A DNA stretch of 64,000 nucleotides, taken from the NCBI GenBank assembly GCA_018644665.1, contig JABGQA010000094.1, positions 1-64,000 on the forward strand. The letters are read 5' to 3'. The translations under genes were made by a program, and so were the position numbers. Position 1 is the first letter of the stretch. Each line of letters opens with the position of its first letter. A model generated the notes under the pieces. That model had not been told where the DNA came from. It ran no database searches and was given only the letters and a program-made list of their open reading frames with translations. The stretch is from Candidatus Poribacteria bacterium. GTDB taxonomy: Bacteria; Poribacteria; WGA-4E; GCA-2687025. This document shows, piece by piece, positions 47,032-48,181 of the stretch.

Positions 47032-47808
47032 TCAATACACTACCCGGACGTGCGGCCGGCCCCCGTTCTCGCTGAGTTCGACCGCGACGCCGTATGTCTC
47101 CTGCACCACGCCTGCGGTGGCGACGTCGGCCACTTCACCAGCCGCGGCAACCTTGCCCGCCTTTAGAAAGACCAGACGGTCGCAGAAGTGGAACGCCAGG
47201 TTGAGGTCGTGCAAGACCACGCCGACGGTCCAACCTCGTTCGGAAACCAGCGACCGGAGAGCCGTCAATATCTCGCCTTGATACTGGATGTCCAGGTGCG
47301 ACGTGGGCTCGTCAAGGAGCACGACGGACGCGTCCTGTGCCAGCAGTTGGGCCAGGTACATCCGCTGACGCTCACCGCCACTCAACGTGTGTGCCGCGCG
47401 CTCGGCCACGCCGTCGAGCGCCATGTCGCTCATCGCAGCGTCGATAGCCTCCTCATCGTCTCCCGCAAGCGAGGCGTAGATCGGTCGATGGCAGAACCGT
47501 CCCATCGCGACGATCTCGCGCACCGGCAGCTCGAGGGCGGTGTTGGGATGCTGCGGCACGACGCCGAGTCTGCGCGCGACGGCCCGTCGCGAGTACGTCC
47601 CGATGCCGGACCCGTCGAGCCGGACCTGCCCATCGGTCGGAGTCAGCGTGCCCGCGAGGGCGCGTAGGAGGGTGGTCTTCCCGGCGCCGTTCGGGCCCAG
47701 GAACCCAGTTACACGCGCGTCATGCAGATCGCACGAGACTGCGTCGAGGATTGTGCTGGGTGGGATGCGTACCGTCACGTTGAGCGCGGACAACGGGTGG
47801 TCGCTCAT
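47032..47808 (-). CDS. siderophore/heme/cobalamin-type ABC transporter ATP-binding protein
   Basis: The 258-residue ATPase belongs to the FecE/BtuD/HmuV family. Walker A is GPNGAGKTTLLRALAG, the signature LSGGERQRMYLAQLLAQ, Walker B VVLLDEPTSHLD, followed by VGVVLHDLNLAFHFCDRL. LGVVPQHPNTALELPVREIV contains the Q-loop. It would energise uptake of an iron chelate, heme or cobalamin, but neither permease nor binding protein is in the window. Cobalamin is an attractive substrate given the B12 riboswitch at 1-30, but this is not shown. It probably shares a transcript with the selenoprotein gene upstream, unless the hairpin at 47841 stops it. Confidence 0.85.
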   Translation of the reverse strand: MSDHPLSALNVTVRIPPSTILDAVSCDLHDARVTGFLGPNGAGKTTLLRALAGTLTPTDGQVRLDGSGIGTYSRRAVARRLGVVPQHPNTALELPVREIVAMGRFCHRPIYASLAGDDEEAIDAAMSDMALDGVAERAAHTLSGGERQRMYLAQLLAQDASVVLLDEPTSHLDIQYQGEILTALRSLVSERGWTVGVVLHDLNLAFHFCDRLVFLKAGKVAAAGEVADVATAGVVQETYGVAVELSENGGRPHVRVVY

Positions 47809-47840: not shown

Positions 47841-47862
47841 AGGGCCGGCAGACGCCGGCCCT
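47841..47862 (-). terminator. hairpin downstream of the selenoprotein gene
   Basis: AGGGCCGGC at 47841-47849 pairs perfectly with GCCGGCCCT at 47854-47862 across a four-base loop. It begins four bases past the selenoprotein stop codon on the minus strand and precedes the ABC ATPase gene. It lacks a T-tract, so it may be a partial terminator or a 3' stabiliser. Confidence 0.55.
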
Positions 47863-47866
47863 GTGT

Positions 47867-48097
47867 CTACGCGGCCTGCGTCACGAGGTCGATGGCTTCC
47901 TGCTCCTCGGGGAACCTGCCCTCGGCCTTCTTCGAGAAGACGAGCGTGCCGTCCACCGTCACCTCGAAGACGCCGCCGGCGCTCTTAGTCAGCGATACGT
48001 CATCGACGCCGTCCACGGCCTTCTTGAGCGCGTCCGCCAAACTGGCGGCCTGGTTTTCGTAGCCTCAAGCGCCGCAGTACTCGATGTCAACCGTCAT
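47867..48097 (-). CDS. SelW/SelT/SelH (Rdx)-family selenoprotein with an in-frame UGA
   Basis: Read through one UGA codon at 48065-48067, this 77-codon frame encodes 76 residues. It begins MTVDIEYCGA-Sec-GYENQA, giving the CxxU redox motif (Cys8, Sec11) of the thioredoxin-like Rdx family. Downstream are VSLTKSAGGVFEVTVDG, LVFSKKAEGRFPE and the final helix, all matching SelW-type proteins. A SECIS-like hairpin follows the UGA. GGAAGGG lies before the ATG and a good promoter at 48153-48181. Standard gene calling would split it at the UGA and miss it. Other genes here use UGA as stop and UGG for Trp, so UGA is not simply reassigned. The likely role is thiol redox chemistry; sel genes must lie elsewhere. 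Confidence 0.88.
48034..48067 (-). promoter_or_regulatory. bacterial SECIS element (UGA plus hairpin) in the selenoprotein gene
   Basis: On the minus strand the UGA (48067-48065) is followed by 16 bases and then by CCGCCA-GTT-TGGCGG (48048-48034), a perfect six-pair stem with a three-base loop. The loop starts 22 bases after the UGA and its first base is G. Known bacterial SECIS elements have the loop about 16-37 bases after UGA with a G in its first two positions, so the criteria are met. Confidence 0.75.
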
Positions 48098-48152
48098 GTG
48101 ATGCCCTTCCGGCGGTTCGGCACGAGCGCCTGCGCGCCCGCTACTCATTCAC

Positions 48153-48181
48153 AGTATAGCGGGGGCTCGACGGGTCAGCAA
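48153..48181 (-). promoter_or_regulatory. sigma-70 promoter of the selenoprotein gene
   Basis: On the minus strand TTGCTG (48181-48176) and TATACT (48158-48153) are separated by 17 bases. Transcription would start near 48146, leaving a leader of about 49 bases. Confidence 0.65.

Follow-up and report, generated by a model that had tools for sequence, protein, structure and literature searches.

The minus strand of a Candidatus Poribacteria contig almost certainly carries, at positions 47867-48097 of the 64,000-nucleotide stretch that we analysed (the window), a functional SelW-like (Rdx family) selenoprotein gene whose product receives selenocysteine (Sec) at UGA codon 11. Bacterial SelW-like selenoproteins first became known in about 2005, and the gene is a well-supported addition to this long-known family. 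The evidence is computational and comprises family membership, the CxxU motif, a hairpin with comparative support, the selA, selB, selC and selD genes, and a predicted fold. A preliminary description, made by reading the letters of the window, had proposed such a gene; its observation is confirmed almost to the base, and its interpretation is supported overall. The gene and its flanking signals are as follows.

47867..48097, minus strand: selW-like (Rdx family) selenoprotein gene, 76 aa followed by a TAG stop (Pfam PF10262, E 1.1e-22)
48065..48067, minus strand: in-frame TGA, selenocysteine codon 11 of CxxU (translation with TGA as U)
48074..48076, minus strand: TGC, Cys8, the partner cysteine of CxxU (translation; invariant in alignment)
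48105..48110, minus strand: ribosome-binding site GGAAGG, 7 nt before the ATG (read from the sequence)
48153..48181, minus strand: weak promoter-like site TTGCTG-17-TATACT (8/12 consensus bases)

With TGA read as U, the frame is open on both sides of one UGA and yields MTVDIEYCGAUGYENQAASLADALKKAVDGVDDVSLTKSAGGVFEVTVDGTLVFSKKAEGRFPEEQEAIDLVTQAA, in which U11 is the single changed codon. The product contains the CxxU motif (Cys8 and Sec11) together with the GGVFEV and EGRFPE blocks, all of which had been read from the raw sequence, and the ribosome site described 5′ of the ATG is in place. The letters of the described promoter are also present, but the site is weak, matching the consensus at 3/6 and 5/6 positions of its two elements, and a promoter scan with a threshold of 9/12 did not pick it up. 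An Rfam scan of the selW region returned only sub-threshold chance matches.

Profile searches assign the product to the Rdx family, as the preliminary description had held. Specifically, Pfam PF10262 (Rdx) matches residues 2-73, on both sides of the TGA, with 80.5 bits (cut-off 22.6; E 1.1e-22), and NCBIfam TIGR02174 (CXXU_selWTH) matches with 72.9 bits (cut-off 34.2). The score for the Campylobacter-type SelTWH equivalog NF041051 (83.8 bits) lies below its cut-off of 88, and the product is not filed there. By the same kind of search, the gene is the single Rdx gene of its genome. In an alignment with 22 homologues, C8, residue 11, G42 and F44 are invariant, the two latter residues falling within the GGVFEV block (residues 41-46). 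AlphaFold, run on the 22 homologues, returned a model with a pLDDT of 96.9 and a pTM of 0.85, which resembles the SelW-related crystal structures 2fa8, 2obk and 2oka (TM 0.90-0.93) more closely than mouse SelW (TM 0.68). The product is thus predicted to have the thioredoxin-like SelW fold.

We then compared 98 genomes, including that of the window and mostly from the same class. An Rdx gene is found in 79 of them, and the match contains exactly one TGA in every case (79/79). The read-out loci with the motif amount to 72 distinct sequences, all of which have CxxU and none CxxC; one distant locus (L027), whose frame was obtained without the motif, was left aside. Aligned homologues keep TGA at the Sec site, rather than the TGC or TGG that the preliminary description had named as the mark of a sequencing error. 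Many other bacteria have Cys-type Rdx proteins, as solved structures such as 2fa8 illustrate, and the TGA of the window could on that ground be a false or disabling stop in a Cys-type gene, produced by sequencing or assembly error or by decay into a pseudogene. This reading is refuted at the level of the family by the single TGA in all 79 separately assembled genomes and by the conservation of the hairpin described below, which is maintained with an invariant loop G; the sequence is moreover conserved on both sides of the TGA, and we give error or decay next to no chance.

A candidate selenocysteine insertion element lies immediately downstream of the UGA.

48034..48048, minus strand: SECIS hairpin CCGCCA-GUU-UGGCGG, 6 bp (kept in register across the phylum, with both-side changes in two pairs)

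The hairpin is separated from the TGA by 16 nt and its loop by 22 nt; the first loop base is G, and the folding energy is -8.6 to -8.8 kcal/mol. Published rules for bacterial SECIS elements specify an apical loop of 3-9 nt, an upper stem of 4-16 bp, G in loop position 1 or 2, a UGA-loop distance of 16-37 nt and an MFE <= -7.5 kcal/mol (PMC13188914), and the hairpin, with its 6 bp, GUU loop, 22-nt spacing and energy, lies within all of them. Taken as a single sequence, it does not exceed chance: folding against shuffles gives z of about -0.3, and synonymous recoding of the window gene alone produces a 6-bp stem at the same place in 5% of recodings, which is not significant, and some hairpin of qualifying geometry in 27%. 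Because the single-sequence tests are not significant, we turned to comparative evidence, and it is only from comparison across genomes that the significance of the hairpin arises.

In a hand-picked set of 27 varied sequences, pairing holds in 94.4% of cells but in no more than 48% once the partner strand is slid; both-side changes number 12, against 3.3 in shuffles; and the covariation score is reached by none of 500 shuffles. A second count, over the full collection of 67 distinct sequences, showed the inner 4 bp to be paired in 99% of cells; G stands first in the loop in 67/67 and U second in 66/67. Related sequences share ancestry, and the pair counts are accordingly not counts of independent events. 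Among family f2 sequences, 34 have an A-A mismatch in place of the second-outermost pair, and the stem is prolonged by an internal loop and a GGC/GCC outer stem. The sequence, the published rules and the conservation across genomes agree on the SECIS hairpin as first described, with six pairs, a start 16 bases after the UGA and G first in the loop.

The failure of the single-sequence tests would also fit a hairpin that is a by-product of conserved codons (Ala-Ala-Ser-Leu-Ala), with some other signal driving Sec insertion. Codon choice and the pattern of substitution argue against this. In particular, Ser19 is encoded by AGT in 63/66 relatives and Leu20 by TTG in 59/66, although these are rare codons, accounting for 6.5% of Ser codons and 7.4% of Leu codons, respectively, in sampled window genes. 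Furthermore, pairs change on both sides, and one stem pair is seen as C-G, U-G and U-A, corresponding to Ala18-Ala21, Val18-Ala21 and Val18-Thr21 in the protein, so that the linked Ala18-to-Val and Ala21-to-Thr swap keeps the pair. On these sequence comparisons, the RNA pair appears to constrain amino acids 18 and 21, and we consider it very unlikely that the hairpin is a codon by-product rather than a SECIS element.

The preliminary description had implied a full selenocysteine system in this lineage and had named the absence of sel genes as evidence to the contrary. The genome of the window (7.47 Mb in 175 contigs, 92.9% complete, 5.3% estimated contamination) contains all four components, selA, selB, selC and selD, and the Sec-decoding trait is present. 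The tRNA-Sec gene (selC) scores 74.2 bits, and ARAGORN confirms it as SeC with anticodon tca (UCA). The profile match for selA scores 564 bits; selB, which adjoins selA on the same contig as tRNA-Sec, scores 343 bits and includes the SelB winged-helix domains; and selD scores 346 bits and has an in-frame TGA of its own.

L109 1231-2259 (G000:C129), plus strand: selD, itself a selenoprotein gene (in-frame TGA, then hairpin TCCAGC-GGT-GCTGGA)

The sel contigs belong to the organism and are not stray, because identity to a same-genus genome is 88% for selA, 99% for the first 150 residues of SelB and 90.6% for selD. A reading frame alone cannot distinguish Sec from another residue, and near-cognate or alternative decoding might place a different amino acid, such as Trp or Cys, at the UGA. 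However, tRNA-Sec, selA, selB and selD are all present, a SECIS-type hairpin is kept at fixed spacing, the residue occupies the redox position of CxxU, and table 11 gives normal translations of ordinary genes in the window; decoding as anything other than Sec is extremely improbable.

We infer that Sec is actually inserted at UGA codon 11. At this codon, SelB would bring in Sec-tRNA(Sec) while bound to the hairpin that lies 16 nt downstream, and selenocysteine would be inserted where the chain would otherwise end. The 76-residue product would adopt the thioredoxin-like SelW fold as a compact domain in which Cys8 and Sec11 lie after the first strand and before the first helix. It would probably serve as a thiol/selenol oxidoreductase in the cytosol, with a Cys8-Sec11 selenenylsulfide formed in its redox cycle.

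Across the 98 genomes, we compared the distribution of the Rdx gene with that of the machinery. Either selA or selD is above cut-off in 79/79 genomes with Rdx, and neither is in 11 of the 19 genomes without it (Fisher p 7e-10, a value that is indicative only, as the genomes share ancestry). Family f3, represented by two genomes (G007 and G011, one of them 95% complete), has no Rdx, no selA and no full selD, and its best tRNA-Sec matches reach 48-50 bits, the level of an ordinary tRNA-Ser, compared with 74-81 bits in other genomes. Instead of a Cys form of selW, this family shows a joint absence of the gene and the machinery, and it seems to have lost the selenocysteine trait altogether. An apparent loss of selW in the same-genus genome G001 was rejected, since contig C352 of that genome starts within the adjoining ABC gene and selW would lie beyond the contig end.

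Three further observations concern the machinery of the relatives. SelD, where above cut-off, contains one TGA in nearly all relatives. The six genomes of genus g14 in family f6 (G022, G035, G042, G060, G061 and G072) have 6-9 SelA-like PLP-enzyme matches per genome, more than other relatives. Genome G003 has two tRNA-Sec genes of equal score (C41:31543-31633 and C76:20147-20237), which may be an assembly duplicate.

Downstream of selW lie a second hairpin and an ABC transporter gene.

47841..47862, minus strand: 9-bp GC-rich hairpin just after the selW stop, with no T run (-20.5 kcal/mol, z -4.4)
47032..47808, minus strand: ABC transporter ATP-binding protein gene of heme/corrinoid/FecE-like type, next downstream

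The hairpin separates selW from the ABC ATPase gene and is possibly a terminator or a processing site. The ATPase is closest to heme, corrinoid and FecE-type importers, scoring below all their curated cut-offs, and it has no neighbouring permease gene in the window. Two other genera of the family (G002:C22 and G003:C205) retain the order selW-ABC, making three genera, and, within the flanks read, the pair was not seen elsewhere in the class. It is unlikely that, in this bacterial family, SelW and the heme/corrinoid/iron-type ABC ATPase of the adjacent downstream gene work together; if they did, the partnership would be the first concrete pathway for a bacterial SelW, for example in the redox handling of an imported metal cofactor or of transporter thiols.

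The gene closely resembles the bacterial SelW-like selenoproteins described previously (PMC1088965; PMC1794560), with which it shares the Rdx/SelW domain, the CxxU motif, the in-frame UGA and, shortly after it, a small SECIS hairpin whose apical loop contains G. In the Sargasso Sea set, SelW-like selenoproteins with CxxU outnumbered every other family (PMC1088965), and few Cys homologues occur in Sec-using bacteria (PMC1794560). The gene itself differs from them in lineage only, being from a high-GC uncultured genome; in this phylum, every copy found is in the Sec form, and in family f1 an ABC ATPase gene often follows. The Rdx proteins of Agrobacterium (Atu0228, 2fa8) and Pseudomonas (2obk, 2oka) belong to the same family by sequence and have the close structural match given above, but Atu0228 has Cys at the Sec position in the alignment, unlike Sec11 here, and needs no SECIS. 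Mammalian SELENOW (2npb) and MIEN1/C17orf37 (2ljk) belong to the same family by sequence and fold, and SELENOW also has CxxU; its SECIS is of the eukaryotic type and lies in the 3′ UTR (PMC1088965), whereas the hairpin here lies just after the UGA, and partners such as 14-3-3 are eukaryotic (PMC10650576). The exact function of the SelW/Rdx family has been described as unknown (PMC10650576). One study, which covered Poribacteria, reported SelA and SelB in the majority of its sponge symbiont bins (PMC5649159); our literature search returned no report of this selW gene in the lineage.

A first-pass reading of raw sequence can thus reveal a selenoprotein hidden behind an in-frame stop. The comparison of SECIS elements offers a clear example of codon choice, and apparently even amino-acid replacement, being dictated by an RNA hairpin. 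Every SelW found in this uncultured phylum is of the selenocysteine type, and genomes that lack the Sec machinery have no SelW.
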